From NCBI GenBank assembly GCA_025963815.1, contig JAOQAA010000265.1, positions 1-11,093 of the forward strand: a stretch of DNA of 11,093 nt, given 5' to 3'. Within the stretch, counting starts at the first letter, position 1, and every line of letters starts with the position of its first letter. Under the pieces are notes generated by a model. It ran no database searches and was not told the origin of the DNA. It saw only the letters and a list, made by a program, of their open reading frames with translations. This document shows positions 1 through 11,093 of this stretch, piece by piece. Source of the stretch: Capsulimonas sp. (GTDB taxonomy: Bacteria > Armatimonadota > Armatimonadia > Armatimonadales > Capsulimonadaceae). Both the position numbers and the translations under genes were made by a program.

Positions 1-859
1 TGGCGGTCTCATCGTCCCGCGCCGCCGGCTTCGCCCCGCGCTCCAGGGCCGCTGGGCGCTCCGTCTTGATAAACTCACCCGGAGAGCCGCCCGTATGCTT
101 GCGAAAACACACATGGAATTGCGACGCGCTGGCGAAGCCACAGTATTCGGCGATCTCGCCGATCGACAGCGTCGAATTGCGCAGCAGCAGTTTGGACTGG
201 CGAACGCGGGCCAGGATCAGATCCTCAATGGGACTGGATCCGAAATAGTGCGAAAACGTCTTTCGATAGTGCGACGAGCTCATATGCACGTGCGCCGCCA
301 TCTCATCGATCGTCCATCGCTGGCGCAGATTGGAATGTACGAACGCGCGCAGACGCCGCAGACTGGTGAGTGTTTCCTTTTGATAGAGCGACGGCGGCGC
401 GATCTCAATTCCGTGCGCGATCACACGCGAGAGGTTCCGCAGAAACGTCCGGCAGAGCAGCGTGACAGCGTCCTCCCAATACGGCTCGCGCTGCACGTGA
501 TGCCGGCGCACCTCTTCTAAAAACGGCGTCAGCGCCAGAGATTCGAATGGCCCCACCATCGCCCGATTGGTCGGGATCGCATAGCGCTGGAGATAATGCT
601 CCAGCCCCTCCCCGCTCACATGGAACCATGTATGGCTGACACTTTTCGAAGCCTTGTACAAATGCCGCTGGCCCGGCGAATACAAGATGCAGACATTCCC
701 CGGATACTCCCGCAGCCCATCCTCGCCTTCCAATTCGACTTGCGAGTCGAAGTATTCAAAGACATAGCTCGACGTCTTTTCGAGAGGGTCCATGAGGTGT
801 TCCGAGGCGATGGACGAGCGGATACACAAGATAGGCACATGAATCTGTTCGCCAAGCAT
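1..859 (-). CDS. AraC-family transcriptional regulator (C-terminus cut by window edge)
   Basis: A DNA-binding activator or repressor of the AraC/XylS family, 286 residues visible and still open at the window edge. The N-terminal ~95 residues look like the cupin-type ligand-binding domain (EYFDSQVELEGEDGLREYPG region at 35-54, then SPGQRHLYKAS at 61-71), which in this family usually binds a sugar or similar small molecule. The C-terminal domain has both helix-turn-helix units: WTIDEMAAHVHMSSSHYRKTF at about 182-202 followed by FGSSP, and LSIGEIAEYCGFASASQFHV at 231-250 followed by FRKHTGGSPGEF, the classic second-HTH signature. The DNA-binding domain is therefore complete and only a low-complexity tail is missing. 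The start at 859 is chosen because GAAGGAA lies about 7 nt upstream. The next gene upstream encodes a secreted GH116 glycosidase, so a role in regulating it is a reasonable inference. The ligand and targets are unknown. Confidence 0.93.
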   Translation of the reverse strand, partial: MLGEQIHVPILCIRSSIASEHLMDPLEKTSSYVFEYFDSQVELEGEDGLREYPGNVCILYSPGQRHLYKASKSVSHTWFHVSGEGLEHYLQRYAIPTNRAMVGPFESLALTPFLEEVRRHHVQREPYWEDAVTLLCRTFLRNLSRVIAHGIEIAPPSLYQKETLTSLRRLRAFVHSNLRQRWTIDEMAAHVHMSSSHYRKTFSHYFGSSPIEDLILARVRQSKLLLRNSTLSIGEIAEYCGFASASQFHVCFRKHTGGSPGEFIKTERPAALERGAKPAARDDETA

Positions 860-915
860 GCGGAGATTCCTTCAATTTGGATGGCGCAGACGGCCAGCAT
901 CGAATATTGGGTGGC

Positions 916-1009
916 ATGCCTGTAGCCCTGGACAGGCATGAATTGCGTACGAAGCGAAACGCGTGTTTGCTCTCGTTCGTAGCACATGCCTGTCCAGGGC
1001 TACAGGCAT
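916..1009. repeat. Long hairpin-forming inverted repeat (BIME/REP- or MITE-like)
   Basis: Two perfect 25-bp arms, 916-940 and 985-1009, are inverted copies of each other. Each arm is also a smaller hairpin (ATGCCTGT, 8-nt loop, ACAGGCAT). The 44-bp spacer is itself imperfectly self-complementary (TACGAA near 948-953 with TTCGTA near 976-981, and GCGAAAC with GTTTGC), so the whole element can fold into one stem. It fills most of the gap between the stop of the GH116 gene and the start of the AraC gene. No target-site duplication is visible. It could act as a transcription or RNA-stability barrier between the two genes, or be a dispersed repeat. With one copy in view the class cannot be decided. 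Confidence 0.85.
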
Positions 1010-1027
1010 AGCGCCCAGTGGCGCCCC

Positions 1028-4000
1028 CTATTCCCCATAAACCATCAACTCATGCACGGACCAGAAGCTTCCGAGGTCCGCGCCCTCGTTGGTGATTCGC
1101 AGATACTGTGCGTCCGTCGGCGGGAACGCGATCGTCAGCACGCCGGCCTGCTGCGCGGCGCCGGCCTGACCGGCGTCGGCGTGAGCGGCGGGCGTCCAGT
1201 TTGCGCCATCCGAGGACGTTTCCAGGAGGTAGCCGCGTGGATAGTCCGAAGGCGACTTCGCGCTGTCCAGAACGAGCTTGGCGACACGCTGGACTTTGCC
1301 CATGTCGAGCGTCAATGCATCGCCCGGGAGCATCGGGCGCAGGGTGGTCCAGCGGGAGGCGGGATCGCCGTCCAAGGCTATCTGTCCAAATGATGCGGCG
1401 AGCTGTGGCGAATCGTGCAAGTTATCGCTCAGCACCCAGTCCGCCGACGGCAGGCCGGGACGCACGGGGGTGGGCGCTTTGACCTCGAAATCGACTTTGC
1501 CGCTGGGAGTTTGAGGAGCCAAGCGGTCGATCATCGACGACAGGTCCAGCGTCGCGCCTTCTTTCACAGCAAAGGGAGCGTCAAGAGCGATGGGCGCGGC
1601 GTCGCCATCGGCAGCCACCGAGGTGAGCGTCATCGCATCCGACGGCGGCGTATGATTGCCGGCGACATGATAGAGCGACTGCTCCGTGGCGGAGTCCAAT
1701 GGGAAGACACGATCGATGCGCAGGGTCAAATGATGCTGCGCGGGAACGTAGTCAAGCCAGCCCCAGAAGCGTGAGAAGTAAACGGGAAGATGCAGCTCGG
1801 TCTCGGTCGTTGCGAGACGCGGCGACACGTAGAGCCGCTTGCCGGGCAGGTCCAGCGACGTTCCAGCGAGGGCGTTCAGCACATGCCACGATGTCGGGCA
1901 GGTCATATAGGTCCCCAGACCGCTTTGCACGCCCGACGGGGCGTCGTAGGCGAGCGATTGGTCCCATGGGCTGTGGTTCAGCTCCCAGGCGCTGTCATAG
2001 ACTCGCTTGATTGTCTCAATCCCGTCATCGACGTAGTTCTCGTAGATCGCCTCGCAGCCCAGAAACGGCTCGTGCTGCAGGAAATAGCACGAGGTGGTCG
2101 TGGGCTTGCCCATGGAAGTGACCTGCATCGGCGGCACGGGATAAAAGGGCTTCTGATGCCGGGCGATTGTCTGCGTAACGCTTTGATAGATGATCTTCGG
2201 ATCGAGGGTGCGCGGCAGGCCGGTCAGGCGCGCCAGCCAGTCGCCGGCGAGGTTCGCCACAAAGCTATCCTCCACCGTTTTCCCCGTTGTCGGCTGGCGC
2301 CACTTTCGGAAATATGTCCCGTTCCACAGGTCCGCCATCACCGATTTCTGGACATCTCCCAGATGCTTGTCGTAAGCCGCCGCCTGCACTGAATCCAAGA
2401 CAGCCGACGCCGCCCGCAGCGCGCCCAAGTAACAGGACGCCGAGTAAATAAACTCGCCGCGCGGCAGCTGTTCGTAATCGTAGGTGCTGCCGCCCGCCGG
2501 GATCAAATTGTCGTCCGCGCCATCTTTTTCGAGCCAGTCCATAGCGCTCGTAATGTGCGGCTTCATGCGAGTGAGAAACGATTCGTCGCCGGTCCAGCGA
2601 TAAAGCTTCACCGCCTGCATCACCCACGCCGACGAAAGGTCCGGCCAATCGGTAATGCCATACCCAACATCGGGGCGTCCGATTACCTCGTGGACATTGC
2701 CGTCGAAGTGCGTGATGCGCCCGTCCGGCTGCTGGCACGTGGCGTACATCTCCAACTCGGCGCGGTCCAGCTCGGGAAAAAACGCCGTGAAGAAGGCGTG
2801 TGACGCCATCCGCTGATCCATCGTGCCCAGCGCGCCGCCCATGTCAATCGGGCTTTCCAGAACCGTGAAGCGCCCGTCCTTGGTCAGGATCGTGTTGGAG
2901 AACAATGGAAACGCGCAGTTGATCAATTTGAGCTTCATCCAGAACGGCAGGCTCGATTGGAGGACAGGGTCTTGCCAGGATCGCGTCTGCTTGAGCAGCG
3001 TGTCCTCGTTCTTGTCGGCGTACGCCGCAATCTCCTTGGCGCTGTTCCACCAGTTCTTCCAGTAATGCCCGACATCTTCCGTGACCACAGTGGTTGTTTT
3101 GATCAGATTCGCCGAGACAGCGTCCGGCGCCAGCGTCAGCGGCTCCGCGCTTCCCTGGGCCTGGATTTTCAGCCCATAAACACTCCACCAGTAGAACGTA
3201 TCCGTTCCAAGGTTCGTCAGACGCAGGTATTTCCCGGCCACGGGCGCCAGCGCGATCGTCTGGGAGGCGCCCTTCATTTGGTCGGCGGTTTTGACCGCGA
3301 CTTCTTTCCAAGTTTTAGCGTCCGGGGAGACTTCGACGCGAAGGCCGTGCGCATAGTCCGTGCCCGCTCCCCCGCTGTCGATTGTGATCGACGACGGCGT
3401 AACGGATTGTCCGAGCGCGACGACGAGATTATCGCCCGCCTGCATCGCGCGCCCGGTTCCCCAGCGCGATCCGCCGTCGGTGTCGGTCACGGCTTCGACA
3501 TCAGTCTTCGATGGCGCCGTCTCCTCGCTCACCATCGCTCGGTTCTGGACCGTGATCATCTGGGGCATCGCCCAGGCGACCCGGAAGCGAAAGACGCGTG
3601 TTTCACCAGGCTTCAGTGTCGCCTCAGCCGCCACCGCGCCTGCCGGCTGCGCGAGATTCCTCCCCGCGCTCTGAAGCTTGCCGGTCCGTTCAAAGCCGCT
3701 CCAAAACGCCGGCGTCGCCGCTGCGGCGTCCCATGACGCACAGCGACTGACCGCCAAGCCACTGTCCGACCGCACTCCCACAAAGTCTTCCCCCAGCACA
3801 TTACGCCGCTGGTCCATATAAGATTGGCTCGTGGAGAAACGCAGTCCTTGAAGCGCTCCGGCCTGCGCCGGCGCCTGCGAATTGCCGCCCAGATCGTCCC
3901 ACTTCGTATCGACGCGACCGCCCCACCCCAAAAGATTTGGCCAGGACAGCAGCATACTCGCCTTCACTGTCTTCGCCGTGGTGTTGGTCACGGAATAATC

Positions 4001-4486
4001 CAAGAAGGCGACGGGTAGTGAGGAGTTCTTAGCGTCATGCGGAATCAGCGGCGAAAACGCCTCTAAACGCACCTTCACCGGCAGCGCATCATCGGCGTAG
4101 TCGATCTGAGCGCGAGGAAACCATCCCTGCATCCGCGTATGCTGAACATTGGTCAGCCCTGCGTACTCCTCGCCCTTTTGCAGTCGCAGCATCCGCGCGA
4201 CCGGCGCGCCGTCCGCCGCCTGGACGCGAACGGCGGCGAAGGCGCCCTTCGCCCACTTGTACGGTCGATCCCAGTTATGCTGGTTGGTGAAGTTCCCGAA
4301 AGACCCATCCGTCATCAGCTCGATCTTGCCGTCCCCAATCCCGCCCAGCGGCACGCCAGACTTCCAGCGGGCGTCGACAATCGTCCCGGTGGCGGGTTCA
4401 AACGAGGGATGAAGCGACTGAGCCGCAGCCGCGTGCGTGGCGGCGAGCGATGATAAGAGGAGAACGCGAAGGACTGCCTTGTTCAT
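1028..4486 (-). CDS. Secreted GH116-family glycoside hydrolase with two discoidin (F5/8 type C) modules
   Basis: A predicted exported beta-glycosidase of 1152 residues, related to non-lysosomal glucosylceramidase GBA2 and bacterial GH116 beta-glucosidases/xylosidases. Residues 1-22 form a signal peptide (basic start, Leu-rich core, Ala-rich cleavage site). The N-terminal GH116 beta-sandwich begins at SGVPLGGIGDGKIELMTDGS (43-62) and runs to about 316. The alpha-helical catalytic domain (about 469-890) contains VLES with candidate nucleophile Glu544 and STYDYE with candidate acid/base Asp670, matching the family's LEG..Y and TYD motifs. A discoidin-like domain (about 325-443, ending YWWSVYGLKI) is inserted between these two domains. 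A second (about 1014-1151, ending FWSVHELMVY) closes the protein. Such modules often bind glycans. The substrate cannot be told from sequence. It has its own upstream terminator and candidate promoter, so it is probably transcribed apart from the polymerase gene. A weak GGGG lies about 5 nt before the start codon. Confidence 0.92.
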   Translation of the reverse strand: MNKAVLRVLLLSSLAATHAAAAQSLHPSFEPATGTIVDARWKSGVPLGGIGDGKIELMTDGSFGNFTNQHNWDRPYKWAKGAFAAVRVQAADGAPVARMLRLQKGEEYAGLTNVQHTRMQGWFPRAQIDYADDALPVKVRLEAFSPLIPHDAKNSSLPVAFLDYSVTNTTAKTVKASMLLSWPNLLGWGGRVDTKWDDLGGNSQAPAQAGALQGLRFSTSQSYMDQRRNVLGEDFVGVRSDSGLAVSRCASWDAAAATPAFWSGFERTGKLQSAGRNLAQPAGAVAAEATLKPGETRVFRFRVAWAMPQMITVQNRAMVSEETAPSKTDVEAVTDTDGGSRWGTGRAMQAGDNLVVALGQSVTPSSITIDSGGAGTDYAHGLRVEVSPDAKTWKEVAVKTADQMKGASQTIALAPVAGKYLRLTNLGTDTFYWWSVYGLKIQAQGSAEPLTLAPDAVSANLIKTTTVVTEDVGHYWKNWWNSAKEIAAYADKNEDTLLKQTRSWQDPVLQSSLPFWMKLKLINCAFPLFSNTILTKDGRFTVLESPIDMGGALGTMDQRMASHAFFTAFFPELDRAELEMYATCQQPDGRITHFDGNVHEVIGRPDVGYGITDWPDLSSAWVMQAVKLYRWTGDESFLTRMKPHITSAMDWLEKDGADDNLIPAGGSTYDYEQLPRGEFIYSASCYLGALRAASAVLDSVQAAAYDKHLGDVQKSVMADLWNGTYFRKWRQPTTGKTVEDSFVANLAGDWLARLTGLPRTLDPKIIYQSVTQTIARHQKPFYPVPPMQVTSMGKPTTTSCYFLQHEPFLGCEAIYENYVDDGIETIKRVYDSAWELNHSPWDQSLAYDAPSGVQSGLGTYMTCPTSWHVLNALAGTSLDLPGKRLYVSPRLATTETELHLPVYFSRFWGWLDYVPAQHHLTLRIDRVFPLDSATEQSLYHVAGNHTPPSDAMTLTSVAADGDAAPIALDAPFAVKEGATLDLSSMIDRLAPQTPSGKVDFEVKAPTPVRPGLPSADWVLSDNLHDSPQLAASFGQIALDGDPASRWTTLRPMLPGDALTLDMGKVQRVAKLVLDSAKSPSDYPRGYLLETSSDGANWTPAAHADAGQAGAAQQAGVLTIAFPPTDAQYLRITNEGADLGSFWSVHELMVYGE

Positions 4487-4575
4487 TGAGACCCCATATG
4501 TAGCGCAATAAACGCAATCACAACCTCAAAAGATTGAAGCTTTGCATTTTGCCGCGCCACATGACCTGTGTTGAC

Positions 4576-4597
4576 TGTTCTCAATGATACCAGAACA
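4576..4597. promoter_or_regulatory. Candidate operator: TGTTCT-N10-AGAACA inverted repeat
   Basis: A perfect 6-bp inverted repeat with a 10-bp spacer. It overlaps the candidate -10 element and start region of the GH116 promoter, where a repressor or activator dimer would act. It lacks the central CG typical of LacI-family operators, so I do not assign a regulator. The AraC protein encoded downstream is one possibility. Confidence 0.4.
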
Positions 4598-4612
4598 ATC
4601 CGTTCGCGTCAG
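4584..4612 (-). promoter_or_regulatory. Candidate sigma70-type promoter for the GH116 gene
   Basis: Read on the minus strand, CTGACG (4612-4607; four of six consensus -35 bases) is followed by a 17-bp spacer and TATCAT (4589-4584; a good -10). Transcription would start near 4577, leaving a leader of about 90 nt before the GH116 start at 4486. The region is markedly AT-richer than the flanking genes. This is a motif match only. Confidence 0.4.
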
Positions 4613-4644
4613 TTCGGAATCTGATCTAAACATTGCACTATTCT

Positions 4645-4688
4645 AACCTCTGCGTCCGGGTATGGAAATGAAGCCGAACGCAGAGGTT
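4645..4688 (-). terminator. Hairpin terminator downstream of the RNA polymerase gene
   Basis: An 11-bp perfect stem (AACCTCTGCGT at 4645-4655 with ACGCAGAGGTT at 4678-4688) is extended by three further pairs after one mismatch. It lies 17 bp past the polymerase stop codon. The T-run is on the plus-strand side (TTTT after the stem). On the minus strand the stem is followed only by AGAATAG, so it is a weak classical terminator in the gene's direction. It still separates the sigma-polymerase unit from the GH116 gene. Confidence 0.6.
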
Positions 4689-4705
4689 TTGCATGCCAAA
4701 ATTGG

Positions 4706-7700
4706 CTAGCGCGCCGGCAGCCCAACGAACAAGCGGCTGTCGACTTCTGTCAGCGGGTCAATCTCGTCGGCGACGACCGCGCGGGCGAAGACGGCGCCGG
4801 GGTACTGTGCGCGCATGGCGCGGGCGAGTACGTGGCGGCCGCCGGCCGAGGGAGCTTGGGGCTCTGAGACGCTCTCACTGCTCAAGTTCCGATACCAGGC
4901 TTGGCGCAGGCTGAGCGCGAACAGCGTCACTTCCTCGGTCGTAAGCCCCTCGACCAGCCCATGCGATGTGGGTGTCGGCTTGCCGTGGATGTCCTGCACG
5001 ATTCCCCAGCCGGCGATGTAATCGAGCAGTAGCCGAGTGGAGCCCCGGGCGCCACTGAGTACGGAAAGACGCGCTGGGTCGAGGTCGTTGTCATCGAAGG
5101 TTGTTTTGCGTGTGAGGATGTCCGTAACTTCCTCGGCGTAGCGAGGCCAGGCGTCGAGCCACTCCTCCGCGCCCGGCTTCGGCGGCAAGTCCAGCGTGTG
5201 GCCAAGAAACGGACCCATCGACCATCCGGAGCGCTTGGCGGCTTCGAAGCCGCGACGGCGCAGGCATTCTGATGCCGTGATTGCCGCCGTGAGGCCATCA
5301 TGCTCGAAGATGCGCTTTAACGTATCTGTTACGTCACGCTTTGTCAGCAGGCCTTCGGGAAGCGGCTCAATGCCGAGGGCGCTGAGCTCCTCGCGCCCTT
5401 CTTCGCTTAAACTGAGATGAGCGAGTCCCCACAGGCTGTCCATGGATGGCCGCAGGTTCGCCAGCAGATGAGGCTCGCGCTCCAGGCAGGCGTGCGGCGT
5501 CAGCAGCTCGCCTGCTTCTCGCTGTCCGGCCTCCGTCACGGGGAGAAATATGGAGCAGATGTCTCCGTCGAAATCGACGTTCATCAGCGATGTGACGACG
5601 GTGTGGATCCGGATTACCTCCCCCGCCTCACGCACCGGGCGAAGCGCCAGCAGCGGCGTATGCACAAACTCCGGCTGTGCATACAGCATTGATGAGGCTA
5701 AGATGACCCAGGAACGCGCCATGACGGCGTCCAGCGCAGCCGCTGCGTCCGGCGACCTTCGCGCAATCGCATCGGCGCCCGAAAACTCACGCATCAGTAT
5801 AGGAGTAAACAGCGCCCAGGCCATTTCTTCTGGCAATGCGACTTCGTCCAGCGCCAGGCCGCTTCCCGGCGATACGATGGCGCGCCCGCTGAAGACGACA
5901 TCTTCATTCCATCGCAGCGTTTCTGGGCCGACTAGCGCTTCGAAGTAAGCGCTCACATTTGCTTCGAGCGCGACGCTTCCTTTGCGAATCAGCGTCTCGG
6001 GAGCCCCGGATTGGATCAATCGTCCAAGCTGCGCATTCACCTTTTCGATGTCATCAAACCCGGCGGTCGCACGGAAGTTTCCCACCGACCTTACCTCCAC
6101 GCCCCGAAGCCAGGGGTGAGGGACAGGGCGGGCAAGCTCCAGCCCCGACGAAGGCGCGCGCAGCGAAAGCTGCAAGATTCCATCCGTAAGGTCGGCGCCG
6201 ATACCGGCGGCGGCGAGGCGCGTGGTGAGATCCGCAAAGGCCGGCGACGATCCCGACTCCTGCTTGATGGAACCATGTGCGAGGCGCTCCGCCAGTGTCG
6301 CCGCCTCGGGATTGCGCTGAGATCGTGTGTGATATTGTTCGCGAATCGTCTCGTAAGCGCCGATCTCGCGCAGGGCGGCGTATTCGAGATAGCCCAAGGC
6401 CTGTCCTGGCGCTGCGCCGCCATTGCTTCCAGCAGTCCCTTCGGCGCCCGTCGTGTATGAAGTCTTTGTAGCCGCTTCGTGATCCAGTCGTCCCCAATAC
6501 ACCCACCCGACACAGGTTGGCCGATCCAGCGCGGGGCCGCCCTTGCCCAGTGCGAGCTGTCCAAGTCCATCATCCGGCAATCCCAGATCTTTGAACTGCG
6601 CCCGTAGATCGTCTTGAGATGGCCCATGAAACGGAAGCGCGATGAACGGCTCGCCAGTAAGATGGGCGATACGCCCGGCGGCGGCTTCCCATAATTGCCC
6701 AAGGTTCAGCCGCGAGATAACCCCAGACGGGGAGTAGACGAGATCAACGGCGACTCCGTCCAGATGCGGCATTTCGTTGTCGGGAAGGATGCGGCTGATG
6801 GTGCATTTCGCGCCGTGACGGTTCGACAACCGGTCGCCGGCCTGGATGAGCGTATAGCGCTCGCGATACCACTGGGTCGGAGCGGGCTCCGTGGGAAAGC
6901 GTTTAGCGCACGATTCACTGATCACAACCGCGTCCTCAAACGTGTCTTCGCCCCACGGCGCGTAGGCCGTGAGCAGGCTGCGGCCGCACCAAAATCCTGG
7001 GACATCCGGCTCGTATCCGGTCTGCACGAGCGCCGGTTCGGATTTCGTTGTCGGCAGCCACTGACGCATCATATTGCAGCTCATGATCAGGCGGGCGTCG
7101 GAACTGTGCTCGATAAAGGGGATCATCATCGCAGGCAGTCCGAAGCCAGCCTCGGGCGTATCGTCAACAATGACTAATTTGCCGTCTCGAATGGCCGCCC
7201 CCATGGCGATCGAGCAGATCTTATTGACGTTCGATCCCTCGGGCGTCTCCAGCGGACTGACGCGGCCGATATTCGCCGCCGTCAGCGCGCCGGTGGCGCT
7301 GGGAATAAAGAGACGCCGCGCGTGGATCTTGCGCGCCAGCCAATTTGTTTTGTCCAGCCATTGCGAATGCTCGGAGTAAAACAAAGCGAACCAGACATCA
7401 AGGGGAAGCCAGGAGCGCAGCAGGGATGCGTCCCAGGGCAGCTCCTCCGTCGCTTCCCCGAGACGCGCTTCGATATCGTCATAAAGGCGTTCGCCGATAC
7501 ACTTGATATTGGCGGCCTCCAGATCTTCCTGGTCGGCGTAAGGCAGCACGATGCGTGGATGCGACCAAGCCGGACCGCCATGGATCGATCCCTGATCGCC
7601 GCCGAGCCAGAGCATCCCTTCTCGGTCCGGTCGGCAAAGTCCGTCGAATGTCGCCGAAGCCTCGCCGCTCGGCCCGAATACCGAAACGGTCACTTGGGCC

Positions 7701-7831
7701 ACTGTCTCCGTGGGGAACTCCACCGCGTATCCCGGCAGCGGCAGCCGTTCGGAAAGCAGTTCGGGCAGCGTTTCCCGAAGAAATCGGTCGTAAGATTCCT
7801 GGTGCCATGTCGTTTCCGTCATCTGGATCAT
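4706..7831 (-). CDS. Single-chain two-barrel RNA polymerase (fused, minimised beta-beta' core)
   Basis: A predicted DNA-dependent RNA polymerase of 1041 residues joining RpoB-like and RpoC-like cores. RpoB signatures run in order: rifampicin-region SQWLDKTNWLARKIHARRLF (156-175), IGRVSPLETPEGSN (188-201), FEDAVVISE (298-306), GDRLSNRHGAKCTIS (332-346), DLVYSPSGVISRLNLGQ (363-379), GYLEYAALREIGAYETIRE (480-498), and SPAFADLTTRLAAAGI (529-544). RpoC signatures follow: LELARPVPHPWL (564-575), FSGRAIVSPG (647-656), LPEEMAWALF (666-675), catalytic NVDFDGD (751-757; Asp753, Asp755, Asp757), PSMDSLWGL (795-803), SGARGS (926-931), and a bridge-helix-like EGLTTEEVTLFALSLRQAW (961-979). It ends soon after. 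No CxxC zinc site and no trigger-loop GxPxTQ/TFH motif are visible. The first ~150 residues are unassigned. I chose the start at 7831 because GGGAG lies 8 nt upstream and it gives an ATGA overlap with the sigma gene. A Met five codons earlier has a poorer site. Confidence 0.9.
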   Translation of the reverse strand: MIQMTETTWHQESYDRFLRETLPELLSERLPLPGYAVEFPTETVAQVTVSVFGPSGEASATFDGLCRPDREGMLWLGGDQGSIHGGPAWSHPRIVLPYADQEDLEAANIKCIGERLYDDIEARLGEATEELPWDASLLRSWLPLDVWFALFYSEHSQWLDKTNWLARKIHARRLFIPSATGALTAANIGRVSPLETPEGSNVNKICSIAMGAAIRDGKLVIVDDTPEAGFGLPAMMIPFIEHSSDARLIMSCNMMRQWLPTTKSEPALVQTGYEPDVPGFWCGRSLLTAYAPWGEDTFEDAVVISESCAKRFPTEPAPTQWYRERYTLIQAGDRLSNRHGAKCTISRILPDNEMPHLDGVAVDLVYSPSGVISRLNLGQLWEAAAGRIAHLTGEPFIALPFHGPSQDDLRAQFKDLGLPDDGLGQLALGKGGPALDRPTCVGWVYWGRLDHEAATKTSYTTGAEGTAGSNGGAAPGQALGYLEYAALREIGAYETIREQYHTRSQRNPEAATLAERLAHGSIKQESGSSPAFADLTTRLAAAGIGADLTDGILQLSLRAPSSGLELARPVPHPWLRGVEVRSVGNFRATAGFDDIEKVNAQLGRLIQSGAPETLIRKGSVALEANVSAYFEALVGPETLRWNEDVVFSGRAIVSPGSGLALDEVALPEEMAWALFTPILMREFSGADAIARRSPDAAAALDAVMARSWVILASSMLYAQPEFVHTPLLALRPVREAGEVIRIHTVVTSLMNVDFDGDICSIFLPVTEAGQREAGELLTPHACLEREPHLLANLRPSMDSLWGLAHLSLSEEGREELSALGIEPLPEGLLTKRDVTDTLKRIFEHDGLTAAITASECLRRRGFEAAKRSGWSMGPFLGHTLDLPPKPGAEEWLDAWPRYAEEVTDILTRKTTFDDNDLDPARLSVLSGARGSTRLLLDYIAGWGIVQDIHGKPTPTSHGLVEGLTTEEVTLFALSLRQAWYRNLSSESVSEPQAPSAGGRHVLARAMRAQYPGAVFARAVVADEIDPLTEVDSRLFVGLPAR

Positions 7832-8451
7832 TGGATGTTCTCCCATTCCTTCACCATCTCACTCCACTCCCGAGCCAACTGCTGACGCGCATGATAGAGC
7901 CGCGATTTGACCGTCCCCGTGGGGATGCCAAGCTTCTCGGCCGCTCCCGCCATATCCATTTCATCCTCATGGATCAGGGCCCAGACTTCTCGCTTCTCGT
8001 CGGAAAGCTGGCCGATCATCTGACGAAGGCGCCGGGCGCTTTCGGCGCTCTGCGCGGCCTCTTCCGGAGTTTCGGCGGCGTCCGCGATCCATTCGGCGGG
8101 CAGGTCGCGGCGGACCTCATCCGTCGCGGCCATCGGCGGCGCTTCAAGCGCCGTTTCACGCCGCCTTCGGACCGAGCGCAGATGGTTGAGAGCAAGGTTT
8201 GTCGCGGCTCGAAAAAGCCATTGCCGAACACCCCCGCGCCCGTCCCATTGGTCCGCCTTGGTCCACACTCGCAGGAGCAGTTCCTGAAGGAGATCCCCTG
8301 CGGCGTCCTCATCACGCACCGTGCGCAGCAGATGCCGGCGCAGGACGTCCTGATAGCGCTGGACCAGCAGCTCAAACGCCGCCTCATCCCGCTCCTGGAT
8401 CCGCTCCATCAATTTGTCATCATGGTTGTTGGTTATCGGGTTCATTGACAT
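7828..8451 (-). CDS. ECF-type (sigma70 family) RNA polymerase sigma factor
   Basis: A 207-residue promoter-specificity factor with only the sigma2 and sigma4 domains, typical of group 4 (ECF) sigmas. Sigma2 covers about 25-98 (AFELLVQRYQDVL..., DLLQELLLRVWTKADQW, GVRQWLFRAATNLALNHLRS). Sigma4 covers about 142-199 (LRQMIGQLSDEKREVWAL, then helix-turn-helix AAEKLGIPTGTVKSRLYHAR). The acidic linker about 101-135 is ordinary for the class. Its TGA stop overlaps the polymerase start as ATGA, so the two proteins are probably translationally coupled and made together. No anti-sigma gene follows; the RNA polymerase takes that place. The start is uncertain: ATG at 8451 and ATG at 8445 are both possible, and neither has a strong ribosome binding site. 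The open frame continues upstream but through the palindrome and the preceding gene. Confidence 0.9.
   Translation of the reverse strand: MSMNPITNNHDDKLMERIQERDEAAFELLVQRYQDVLRRHLLRTVRDEDAAGDLLQELLLRVWTKADQWDGRGGVRQWLFRAATNLALNHLRSVRRRRETALEAPPMAATDEVRRDLPAEWIADAAETPEEAAQSAESARRLRQMIGQLSDEKREVWALIHEDEMDMAGAAEKLGIPTGTVKSRLYHARQQLAREWSEMVKEWENIQ
7840..7844 (-). promoter_or_regulatory. Ribosome binding site GGGAG that sets the polymerase start
   Basis: GGGAG lies inside the last codons of the sigma gene, 8 nt before the ATG at 7831. That start shares its bases with the sigma TGA (ATGA). The spacing is optimal, whereas the ATG at 7846 has AAGGA almost touching it. This supports the 1041-residue form. 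Confidence 0.65.
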
Positions 8452-8508
8452 ACCAAGGACACCGGAGGGAGGGCGCGGGTTCAATGCGGGCGAAAGAAAA
8501 CGACAAAT

Positions 8509-8532
8509 GGCCCATCCAAATTTGGATGGGCC
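8509..8532. terminator. Perfect 24-bp palindrome upstream of the sigma gene (terminator and/or operator)
   Basis: GGCCCATCCAAA and its exact reverse complement abut at 8520/8521. On the minus strand this gives a 10-bp GC-rich stem with an AATT loop, followed by ATTTGTCGTTTTC, so it can work as a rho-independent terminator for the metabolic operon ending at 8592. It also lies 58 bp before the sigma start, in a position where a dimeric regulator could bind. Sequence alone does not separate the two roles. Confidence 0.6.
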
Positions 8533-8591
8533 GAAAATCAGGGAGAACTGGCAAAGATTGATCACGTTGGAGATGGATTCCTTCTTATCCA

Positions 8592-8942
8592 TCATTCCAT
8601 CAAAAGCATGCCGAGCGGCTTGAGGGGGCCAAGCGGGATGAGCTCGAAGGTCATCAGGCCGGCCACGCCTAAGGGAAGTTTTTCGAGCAGTTCGTGCGCC
8701 TCGACGGGAGTCGTCACGTTCAGGATGAAGACGACGCCATTCGACCCGGTCTGGAAGAACCACTGGTCGATTTTGCCGGCCAGATGGAGACGGACGGTCG
8801 CCGGCACTTCAAAGGGCATGATCTGCGCAATGGCTTCGGGCGTCGCCTTGGCGGTCAGGGAGCTAATCGCCAGAATTTTGGTCGTGGGAACGGCTTCCAG
8901 AGCTGCCATGTCAGGCGCGCTGGGATTTTGATTTTCGGACAT
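8592..8942 (-). CDS. Small muconolactone-isomerase-like / dimeric alpha-beta barrel protein
   Basis: A 116-residue protein. After a disordered N-terminus (about 1-25) it has the compact ferredoxin-like pattern of the dimeric alpha/beta-barrel superfamily: KILAISSLT strand, helix around ATPEAIAQIMPFEVPATVRL, strand DQWFFQTGSNGVVFILNV, helix TPVEAHELLEKLPL, then GLMTFELIPLGPLKPLGMLL. The HELLEKLPL...F.LIPL segment resembles muconolactone delta-isomerase and YciI-type proteins. The exact reaction is not known. The start at 8942 has AGGAG 8 nt upstream. The gene follows the dehydrogenase gene by 16 bp and is probably co-transcribed with it. It is the last gene before the palindrome. Confidence 0.8.
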   Translation of the reverse strand: MSENQNPSAPDMAALEAVPTTKILAISSLTAKATPEAIAQIMPFEVPATVRLHLAGKIDQWFFQTGSNGVVFILNVTTPVEAHELLEKLPLGVAGLMTFELIPLGPLKPLGMLLME

Positions 8943-8958
8943 GAGCTTTCTCCTGTGA

Positions 8959-9702
8959 TTAGCGTTGCGGCAGCCGGGCGGACATCTTGGCTTGAAACGC
9001 CTTGGGATCGGCCGTGAAGGCGGCGTAGGCGCCGCGTGACAGAGCCCCCGCGACGACTTCGTCGTTCTGATCCGCTTGGATCGCATCCAGGGAATCCGAA
9101 ACGACTTCCTCGGGCGTTAAGCGCGGCTCCGGCAATCGCGCGCCCATCGGCGTCTCCGTCTGAGCCGCGAGAACGCCGACAACCAGTGTCCCCTGCGCCG
9201 AAAGCTCAGCCCGGATGCTGCGTGTGAGAGAGAGGCCCGCCGCCTTGGACGCCGAATAGGTTGCGGCCATGGGAAGGCTCACCAGCGACACCATCGACAG
9301 CATATTCAGGACAGCGCCGCCGCCCGACGCCGCCAGGATCGGGCTAAAGGCGCGGGTCAGCGCCAGGGCGCCGAAGTAATTGACGTCCATCTCCCGGCGC
9401 GCACTGGAGAGATCGGGCGCCGAGATCGCGCCTTCGAACGCGGCGAAACCGGCGTTGTTGATGAGAAAGGTCACATCCGGCGCGGCGGCGACCGCCGCTT
9501 CGACTTGCGCCAGATCGGTCACATCGAGCGTGAGAGGGACCAGGCGCTCGTCCCCACCCGCCATCAGATCCGAGAGCGAAGCGGCGTCGCGCGCCGCGAT
9601 ATAAACTTTCGCGGCGCCACGTTTTAGCAGCTCGCTGACAAAGGCGCGCCCAATACCCCCAGGGGCGCCTGTCACGAGGGCGACAGAACCAGAGATATCC
9701 AT
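8959..9702 (-). CDS. Short-chain dehydrogenase/reductase (SDR), classical type
   Basis: A 247-residue NAD(P)-dependent oxidoreductase with a Rossmann fold, of normal length for classical SDRs. Visible motifs: cofactor-binding TGAPGGIG (11-18), Asp60 in the LDVTD adenine-contact segment, INNAG (81-85), Asn108 in VNYFG, and the catalytic Ser136/Tyr149/Lys153 set (LNMLSMVS...YSASK). The ARD segment after beta2 (37-39) carries an Arg, which may favour NADP. The substrate cannot be inferred. The start at 9702 has AGGAG about 11 nt upstream; a longer in-frame extension would overlap the preceding gene and has no family support. It lies between an alpha/beta hydrolase gene and the small isomerase-like gene in the same direction. 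Confidence 0.93.
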   Translation of the reverse strand: MDISGSVALVTGAPGGIGRAFVSELLKRGAAKVYIAARDAASLSDLMAGGDERLVPLTLDVTDLAQVEAAVAAAPDVTFLINNAGFAAFEGAISAPDLSSARREMDVNYFGALALTRAFSPILAASGGGAVLNMLSMVSLVSLPMAATYSASKAAGLSLTRSIRAELSAQGTLVVGVLAAQTETPMGARLPEPRLTPEEVVSDSLDAIQADQNDEVVAGALSRGAYAAFTADPKAFQAKMSARLPQR

Positions 9703-9758
9703 AGTAAAGCGTTCTCCTATAAATCGTGATTGCGGAACAGAATTAGAAGCGACCAGGA

Positions 9759-10628
9759 TTAGGAAAGCATCGCCTGTGCGACTTCGGCGGGCATATCCGA
9801 TTGCACCCAATGACCCGCCGGCAGCAGATAAAGCGTGGCGTGCTGGAAATGGGACGCCCGGTTCTTCCCCACATCCGCCGTGATATAGGGATCGAGTTCT
9901 CCCCAGATCACCTTGACCGGAAGATCGAGATTCTTTAACTCAGCCAGGCGCCGCGTATTTCGCGCCAGCTCCGCAAAGAAGTGCGAAGCAAGCTGCATGA
10001 ACGCCGGCCCAGAACTCGGCGGCTGAGTGAAATTGTCGGCAATAAGCTGCCCAATCGATGTTTCGAAGCGCTCCTTTTGATCCGGCGGCAATGGATCGGC
10101 GAACAGCGTTTTCTGCCAGCCGAGCAGCCAGCCAAACTGCGCGGGGCTCTGCGCGATGGCGGCGCTCAGCGCGCTCATACTATGGGTCGCGAACAATGTC
10201 ACCATTTCCGGCCAGACGATGGGAAATGCGTCGTCGTAACCCGAGTTCAGGATACACAGCGACTCGACGCGCTGTGGATGCGCCAGCGTAAAGTTGATCG
10301 CCGTCGGCCCCGATGAGTCGTGAGCGACGGGAACGATTGTTTCCAATCCCAGGACATCGATCACCGTTTCCAGATCGCCCAACTGCTGCCCGAAGTTATA
10401 AATCGCGCCGGGAAGTTTGTCGGAGGCGCCGAACCCTAGAAAATCAAACGTGACGACCCGCCGGCCGGCGGCGACAAGATGCGGGACAAGATCGTCGTAA
10501 ATGCGCAGATTATCGGGGAAGCCGTGCATGAGCACAAAGGCGGGTTCGGCGCCGGCGTAGTCGCGCGTGTAGATGCGTCCCTGTCCATGGGAAATGTAGT
10601 GTTCGGTAAAGAATGGTTTGCCGTCCAT
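9759..10628 (-). CDS. Alpha/beta hydrolase with Asp nucleophile (dehalogenase/epoxide-hydrolase type)
   Basis: A 289-residue soluble hydrolase. HGFPDN (35-40) forms the oxyanion region. DFLGFGASDK (62-71) is the usual strand-4 motif. The nucleophile elbow is VAHDSSG (101-107), with Asp104 at the nucleophile position of haloalkane dehalogenases and epoxide hydrolases. Asp246 (WGELDPY) and His273 (AGHW) complete the triad. A cap domain spans about 135-225. The Trp that normally follows the Asp in dehalogenases (HDWGG) is Ser here, so halide binding of the classical type is doubtful. The start at 10628 has GAGGAG 6 nt upstream. It follows the chloroperoxidase-like gene by 23 bp and precedes the SDR gene by 56 bp, suggesting one operon. 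Confidence 0.9.
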   Translation of the reverse strand: MDGKPFFTEHYISHGQGRIYTRDYAGAEPAFVLMHGFPDNLRIYDDLVPHLVAAGRRVVTFDFLGFGASDKLPGAIYNFGQQLGDLETVIDVLGLETIVPVAHDSSGPTAINFTLAHPQRVESLCILNSGYDDAFPIVWPEMVTLFATHSMSALSAAIAQSPAQFGWLLGWQKTLFADPLPPDQKERFETSIGQLIADNFTQPPSSGPAFMQLASHFFAELARNTRRLAELKNLDLPVKVIWGELDPYITADVGKNRASHFQHATLYLLPAGHWVQSDMPAEVAQAMLS

Positions 10629-10651
10629 GTCATACTCCTCGCTGAATTCCG

Positions 10652-11093
10652 TCAGGATTTGAGGAACGCCAGTAGATCGGCGTTGACTTCATTGGCCAGC
10701 GTTGTGCATAGCCCGTGCGGCGCGCCGGGGTAAACCTTGAGCTTGGCGCCCTTGACCATCTTGACCGTACGCAGCGACGCGATGTCGATGGGAACGATCT
10801 GGTCGGCGTCCCCCTGCAAAACAAGCGTTGGGATATCGAACTTCGCTAAGTCTCCTCGGAAGTCCGTTGCGGAGAACGCCTTGATGCAATCGTATTGGCC
10901 CTGGATCGACCCCATCATCCCCTGGAGCCAGAACGAGTCGCGGACGCCCTGTGAGACCTTTGCGTCCGGCTTGTTGTAGCCGTAGAACGGCATGCTGAAA
11001 TCCTTGTAGAACTGGGCGCGATCCCCCAGCACCGCAGCGCGAATACCGTCGAACACTTCGATAGGCGCTCCTTGAGGATTTGAGTCGGTCTTC
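10652..11093 (-). CDS. Cofactor-free chloroperoxidase/esterase-type alpha/beta hydrolase (N-terminus outside window)
   Basis: The C-terminal ~146 residues of an alpha/beta hydrolase closely resembling non-heme chloroperoxidase/arylesterase proteins of about 275 residues. Diagnostic stretches are PIEVFDGIRAAVLGDRAQFY near the start of the visible part, then VSQGVRDSFWLQ, YDCIKAFSATDF, and LVLQGDADQIVP with the triad Asp. VYPGAPHGL follows with the triad His, and the end is NADLLAFLKS. The Ser nucleophile (GxSxG) lies beyond the window edge and cannot be checked. Family members hydrolyse esters and show perhydrolase/haloperoxidase activity in vitro; the physiological substrate is usually unknown. 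It is the first visible gene of the metabolic operon. Confidence 0.92.
   Translation of the reverse strand, partial: KTDSNPQGAPIEVFDGIRAAVLGDRAQFYKDFSMPFYGYNKPDAKVSQGVRDSFWLQGMMGSIQGQYDCIKAFSATDFRGDLAKFDIPTLVLQGDADQIVPIDIASLRTVKMVKGAKLKVYPGAPHGLCTTLANEVNADLLAFLKS

Follow-up and report, generated by a model that had tools for sequence, protein, structure and literature searches.

We analyzed an 11,093-nucleotide stretch of DNA from Capsulimonas sp. of the Armatimonadota (NCBI GenBank assembly GCA_025963815.1, contig JAOQAA010000265.1, positions 1 to 11,093; hereafter the window), in which the gene at 4706–7831 on the minus strand encodes a compact single-chain beta-beta' RNA polymerase of 1041 amino acids. 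Directly upstream of it is a gene for an extracytoplasmic function (ECF) sigma factor, and a conserved promoter precedes the two. On the evidence presented below, it is likely that the two genes form a self-contained, autoregulated chromosomal module of a sigma factor and a minimal polymerase that stands beside the normal RNA polymerase of the cell.

The interval 4706–7831 is a stop-free open frame in translation; a longer, mechanically called reading frame starts at 7846 and has 1046 residues, and residue numbers follow this longer frame. The strongest profile matches found for its product were the RpoB model TIGR02013 (3e-39, best stretch residues 334–542) and the RpoC model TIGR02386 (5.5e-16, best stretch residues 650–815). 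Profile alignment with hhalign showed both RpoB (6.8e-69) and RpoC (3.8e-49) to be collinear with the chain, the beta part coming first and the beta' part second, with the catalytic NVDFDGD at residues 756–762 (5561–5581, minus strand). When the chain was scanned against Pfam, PF00562 (1.1e-26) and PF00623 (4.6e-12) passed their cut-offs and PF04565 fell under its own. A sequence-only reading of the window had claimed that this one uninterrupted frame carries RpoB and RpoC signatures in native order, and these results confirm it; as judged from sequence, the beta-beta' identity of the frame is far beyond chance. The predicted structure is confident (predicted local distance difference test score of 91.5), and the model contains a pair of double-psi barrels with the DxDxD motif and the invariant beta lysine, which places the protein in the two-barrel superfamily.

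A homologue search gave 2013 proteins at E≤1e-5; the 120 of them that were listed (each 991–1106 residues long) were used for motif counts, and the canonical proteins set against them were 22 from Armatimonadota, Patescibacteria and Deinococcota only. The three aspartates of NVDFDGD (Asp758, 760 and 762) as well as Arg343, His344 and Lys347 of the beta motif GDRLSNRHGAK (residues 337–347; 6806–6838, minus strand) do not vary among 58 aligned members, whose identity with the window's protein goes as low as 42%. The clamp-helix pair (residues 597–638; 5933–6058, minus strand), the SGARG-loop region and the bridge-helix region (together residues 936–991; 4874–5041, minus strand), all located from the structure model and the alignment, align with the canonical enzyme. 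Literal motif counts are not all informative (SGARG in 36/120 compact versus 14/22 canonical proteins, GARKG in 13/120 versus 20/22, the clamp-helix pattern in 55/120 versus 7/22), and it is therefore the alignments that carry the argument for these retained parts. Other parts set the protein outside the canonical cellular enzymes. The beta flap is gone, since residues 316–332 (6851–6901, minus strand) face well over 100 canonical beta residues in the profile alignment, and PF00562 was matched in two relatives at positions 2–98 and then only from 220 or 221 to 354. The zinc-ribbon pattern and a loose trigger-loop pattern were each found in none of the 120 family proteins versus all 22 canonical ones, and a strict trigger-loop pattern in none versus 14 of the 22. 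The last 40 residues may correspond to the canonical beta' C-terminus; the sequence match is weak (E 0.036, probability 1.4%), and the remaining support comes from the end points of the structural alignment of the predicted model.

The polymerase gene had been described as lying in an ordinary metabolic neighborhood. This description is incomplete, as it missed the adjoining upstream gene at 7828–8445 (minus strand), which encodes an ECF sigma factor of 205 amino acids and whose stop overlaps the polymerase start by 4 nucleotides (ATGA). The promoter and the absence of the flap, zinc ribbon and trigger-loop motif had likewise escaped the sequence-only reading. The product has sigma regions 2 and 4 only (PF04542, 8e-14; PF08281, 6e-11; TIGR02937, 5e-27), and a Capsulimonas sp. 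protein of the same length is 96% identical to it. A scan of genome contigs yielded 156 stretches encoding relatives of the polymerase, of which the best 80 were kept; 48 of these (L003–L050) are compact loci, some of them cut by a contig end. According to their record titles, they come from Armatimonadota, Chloroflexota, Poribacteria, Latescibacterota, Gemmatimonadota, Hydrogenedentota, Myxococcota, Planctomycetota and unplaced bins. An ECF sigma frame lies upstream on the same strand in every one of the 48 (partial at the contig end in L013 and L049). The sigma stop is no more than 30 nucleotides from the nearest possible polymerase start in 35 loci, the 4-nucleotide overlap occurs in 13, and the distance exceeds 300 nucleotides in 4. 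No further gene family was common to more than 6 of the 48 loci, many of which are short.

The linked sigma factors also form a group of their own. In a tree that set 31 linked rows (30 of the 48 linked sigma factors fetched, plus that of the window, with fragments excluded) against 15 unlinked sigma factors, the two sets split with full support; two of the unlinked proteins lie beside the giant fusions described below, the profile behind the alignment was built from linked sigma factors, and the bootstrap was unsettled. Polymerase and sigma distances were correlated at 0.924 over 44 pairs and at 0.686 among distant pairs, versus a maximum of 0.187 in 1000 permutations. Because such a correlation is also expected from shared descent, it indicates that the pair has been inherited as a unit and is not proof of protein contact.

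Side-by-side reading of the regions upstream of the sigma genes identified a shared element, TGAAC-N15-CGGTGTC, directly before the sigma gene. In the window this promoter spans 8458–8483 on the minus strand, with TGAAC at 8479–8483, a 15-nucleotide spacer and GGTGTC at 8458–8463. Of 53 loci, 51 of which have 100 or more nucleotides of upstream sequence, 45 carry a relaxed form 26–300 nucleotides before the conserved sigma start and 33 carry the strict form; 200 shuffles of the upstream regions gave means of 0.05 and 0.0 loci, respectively. In the 1.76 million strand-bases of the 53 loci, the strict form had no second occurrence and the relaxed form occurred elsewhere 10 times. Some of the free positions are conserved as well, with C before GGTGTC in 37/42 and a pyrimidine after TGAAC in 40/42; the letters used to pick the promoters are fixed by construction in these base counts. 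Capsulimonas corticalis has a sigma factor 79% identical and a polymerase 73% identical to those of the window; the DNA match starts about 50 nucleotides before the sigma gene, at the promoter, and the neighboring genes differ, bar a distant dehydrogenase match (29%, 1.6e-10) far from the operon.

The compact gene accompanies the canonical enzyme and does not replace it. Strong matches to it were present in 17 of 291 Armatimonadota genomes, and canonical rpoB was also present in 11 of the 16 carriers other than the window's own genome, including all 8 carriers with a completeness of 90% or more and a contamination of 5% or less. The five carriers without canonical rpoB are 72–86% complete. Both genes were also found in two chromosome-level Latescibacteria genomes and in Dictyobacter, where the compact gene is split (G291–G293, 3/3). 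The suggestion of the sequence-only reading that this may be a second, dedicated cellular RNA polymerase is thus supported by the coexistence, and the compact protein is not a housekeeping rpoB-rpoC fusion. That reading had proposed a check for separate rpoB and rpoC genes elsewhere in the genome: the window's own bin, which is 69% complete, contains rpoA, and no canonical rpoB or rpoC domain was found in it.

To what extent the promoter occurs beyond the operon was assessed in ten carrier genomes, which contained 27 perfect matches, nine of them the operon's own promoter (one each in nine genomes). The 18 non-self matches compare with 17 for the pattern read backwards, and ten non-carrier genomes gave 20 versus 14. 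In G241, G244 and G293, the operon's own promoter was the only perfect match. All 18 non-self matches lie inside frames of at least 120 codons, a criterion that catches 5 of the 9 self sites too. With the spacer set to 16, 8 matches were obtained versus 15 for the control, and no operon's own promoter was among them. As the perfect pattern shows no excess beyond the self sites, transcription of its own operon is the one clear target.

These observations suggest the following scheme. Region 2 of the sigma factor would dock on the retained clamp helices, which we take to be the equivalent of the canonical docking site for this region, to make a holoenzyme with the one-piece polymerase. Region 4 would sit on the -35 box, with or without a contact to the polymerase, and the sigma factor would bring the polymerase to the TGAAC-N15-CGGTGTC promoter. 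The polymerase would then open the DNA and make RNA by two-barrel, three-aspartate, two-metal chemistry, without a flap or, to judge by its sequence, a trigger loop. We infer binding between this sigma factor and this polymerase, activity of the pair, and a very small set of targets. Since the clearest target is the operon itself, the pair would control its own expression and depend little on the host core enzyme; in the simplest reading of its biological use, it would be a positive loop that, once switched on, runs without the host core.

Several observations weigh against this scheme. In the canonical enzyme, the beta flap is where sigma region 4 docks, so the missing flap leaves half of the usual sigma contact without a known site. 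The 53 promoter loci include close relatives and are thus not 53 independent cases; the promoter is absent in six loci that have upstream sequence (L017, L018, L024, L035, L037 and L047), and G216 lacks a perfect self site. When one mismatch was allowed, 40 matches were found, of which 8 were self sites and 32 were not, versus 15 for the control. Only one of the 22 inspected non-self matches (of the 32) is intergenic by a criterion that also called 3 of the 8 self sites non-intergenic, and a modest or small wider regulon beyond the operon is possible. Finally, the window's subclade (P0001–P0008 of the 120 listed homologues) has two changed sites near the active site (5561–5720 and 6806–6838), with the aspartate triad kept. 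Of the 58 aligned members, 50 have the lysine of GDK at position 339; 7 of these 8 proteins have another residue there, which is Arg in the window's polymerase. In 8/8, a longer segment takes the place of the beta' R-AP motif, which lies before the catalytic loop and was present in all 10 other rows printed (literal NRAP in 53/120), and P0007 has DFDDD. The GDK lysine and the R-AP positions contact the end of the RNA and the nucleotide about to be added, so that the chemistry of this subclade may differ, and the window enzyme may have unusual kinetics or substrate choice.

The missing flap and the changed active-site residues would also fit a different arrangement, in which the ECF sigma factor directs the host's canonical polymerase to the operon while the compact protein has another job, such as RNA-templated synthesis, DNA synthesis or regulation. 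The two-box layout of the promoter is that of ECF promoters generally and agrees with such a division of labor. However, it would leave unexplained why sigma factor and polymerase are paired in 48/48 loci, their genes often overlapping, why they have diverged so closely together, why the clamp helices are retained and why no other gene family is tied to the pair. We therefore regard it as unlikely.

The origin of the family bears on a second alternative, namely that the gene stems from a phage or another mobile element, its product being a YonO-like, crAss-like or P23-45-like polymerase that is either domesticated or still in transit. Phages are the best-known source of single-chain two-barrel enzymes (PMC5467207, PMC10770324). 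In addition, the phage family of unknown function phrog_24349 matches the polymerase at 1.2e-29 (best stretch residues 333–511), two more PHROGs match at 1e-16 and 2e-12, and some viral contigs carry long single-frame relatives of 1447–2076 amino acids. Against this stand several results. No compact single-chain frame was present in the 80 viral loci examined (of 138 found), and no match covered 80% of the protein among 50,697 phage records (24 with matches) or 72,556 plasmid records (66 with matches). In a tree on 634 shared columns, all 26 compact rows fall on one side of a branch with full support (Shimodaira-Hasegawa-like approximate likelihood-ratio test, 100), separated from the canonical rows, the giant fusions and the viral rows of both the two-gene and the single-chain kind. 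As this tree comprises 67 chosen rows aligned with the compact profile and its root was not inferred, it shows one group and not an age. The family occurs on contigs of up to 8 Mb. It also largely tracks bacterial phyla: on a compact tree of 45 rows, the phylum labels change 9 times, the minimum possible being 7. Strong horizontal transfer was rejected on this basis, and we read the counts as a mostly old, vertical history with losses. Armatimonadota, Latescibacterota, Chloroflexota and Gemmatimonadota are each split in the tree, so that some transfer or an old duplication is possible. The proposal of the sequence-only reading that this might be a domesticated mobile-element polymerase has thus gained no support, and we consider a mobile origin very improbable. 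Also very improbable is a paralogue that is inactive or in decay and has been retained for a non-catalytic task, as the split frames in 3/48 loci (L016, L027 and L049) and the altered residues of the window subclade are outweighed by the invariance of the three aspartates, Arg343, His344 and Lys347 in 58 members and by the retention of the promoter across phyla.

A module of sigma factor and minimal polymerase beside the normal enzyme thus remains our preferred reading for the window. Its bolder extension is offered tentatively, as we judge it slightly more apt to fail than to hold: at least eight bacterial phyla (by record titles) would harbor a miniature two-protein second transcription system, with a sigma factor of its own and a one-chain polymerase of 1,000 residues that lacks flap and trigger loop, whose promoter is chiefly or only its own. 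Independent of the host enzyme, it would be a self-sustaining, switch-like circuit and a natural orthogonal system, and could serve as a model for a cellular RNA polymerase reduced to its minimum.

Some relatives differ from this plan in their layout. The compact polymerase occupies at least two frames in L016, L027 and L049, and those of L016 and L027 share one phase, indicating a stop codon or a natural split. In six Latescibacterota loci (L007, L026, L029, L030, L031 and L048), a protein of 315–345 amino acids is encoded upstream of the sigma gene, followed in five of the six by a second protein of about 320 amino acids; the two upstream proteins scanned (L007 and L031) matched the DksA/TraR zinc finger at 5e-8 and 8e-10. 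Since RNA polymerase is what proteins of the DksA type act on, the upstream protein may be an accessory factor. Larger fusions exist as well. Six viral contigs (L115, L126, L131, L141, L143 and L151) have beta and beta' in one frame of 1455–2076 amino acids, with intein and homing-endonuclease domain matches in the beta' part of L115 and L126. Chromosomal alpha-beta-beta' chains of 1979–2234 amino acids were found in Poribacteria and Latescibacterota (L065:7046–13750, L064:7799–14449 and L070:635–6574), with RpoA domains first, then beta and beta' (Pfam RNA_pol_A_bac, RNA_pol_L, Rpb2 and Rpb1). An ECF sigma gene lies directly downstream of the L064 fusion and another near the L065 fusion on the opposite strand; the L065 genome has a separate canonical rpoB and the L064 genome a fragment of one. 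Four further proteins of 2236–2363 amino acids that start with RpoA came from other sources.

The remaining features of the window surround the operon. A 10-pair hairpin with a T-rich tail, resembling a terminator, lies just upstream of the promoter (8509–8532, minus strand), and C. corticalis has a similar hairpin ahead of its sigma gene; the hairpin scan found 2 terminator-like sites in the region versus 3.1 expected from shuffles. Directly after the polymerase stop, at 4645–4688, a perfect 11-bp inverted repeat (arms 4645–4655 and 4678–4688) was read from the sequence; it was not flagged by the scan, whose loop limit is 8. By Pfam, the neighboring genes encode a GH116-type glycosidase with F5/8C domains (1028–4486), a weak muconolactone-isomerase-like protein (8592–8945), a short-chain dehydrogenase (8959–9705) and two alpha/beta hydrolases (9759–10628 and 10652–11056). 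A PADLOC defense search gave no match for the polymerase and two weak ones for the sigma factor, and no RNA families were found.

According to the textbook view, a bacterium has one core RNA polymerase, common to all of its sigma factors. If our reading is correct, many phyla possess a further cellular core that has a sigma factor and a promoter to itself. Such a small natural enzyme could be used to ask which RNA polymerase parts (flap, trigger loop, zinc ribbon, alpha) are dispensable, how a sigma factor functions without a flap and what purpose an apparently self-targeting transcription circuit serves, and it might find use as an orthogonal expression tool. In the open-access papers to which the search was confined (subscription papers and preprints lay outside it), no description of a sigma-linked chromosomal compact family was found; relatives may be mentioned in early surveys by Iyer and Aravind.

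Among known systems, canonical RpoB and RpoC share with the compact polymerase the two double-psi barrels, DxDxD, RHG-x-K, the clamp helices, the bridge-helix region and a collinear order, whereas the compact enzyme is one 1041-residue chain without a flap, zinc-ribbon or trigger-loop pattern and stands beside the canonical one. In Helicobacter and Wolbachia, the fused rpoB-rpoC is the housekeeping enzyme. These fusions likewise have beta and beta' in one chain, but their models comprise 2839 and 2890 positions, whereas the compact protein has roughly one third of this length and is an additional enzyme. The linked sigma factors resemble other ECF sigma factors in having regions 2 and 4 and a two-box promoter before their own gene; they differ in being tied to a private polymerase and in forming their own group. 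Single-subunit two-barrel enzymes are recorded for phages and fungal plasmids in PMC7281927, and the alternate beta' proteins without most catalytic residues described in PMC4679880 are different from the compact family. P23-45 gp64/gp96 and crAss-like gp66 are single-chain two-barrel enzymes as well; by description, they differ in being phage proteins with no sigma partner described in the available text of PMC10770324, which mentions fused derivatives of cellular enzymes in its first clade. Neither they nor other phage forms were among the 50 best structural matches listed by Foldseek or by VIA. YonO of phage SPbeta also compares with the compact polymerase. As outlined in PMC5467207, it is a single-chain enzyme without detected trigger-loop homology whose homology to multisubunit enzymes is limited to a few residues; it transcribes phage late genes, its need for factors is open, and YonO-like relatives sit in prophages and in some bacterial chromosomes. 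YonO-like proteins also lack the flap insert, according to a jumbo-phage survey (PMC7824862). The compact polymerase thus resembles YonO in being one chain of about the same size with no trigger-loop homology and no flap insert. Its gene is chromosomal, a location that is neutral in this comparison; by YonO's description, what sets the compact enzyme apart is its strong RpoB homology (3e-39) and the sigma factor linked to its gene.

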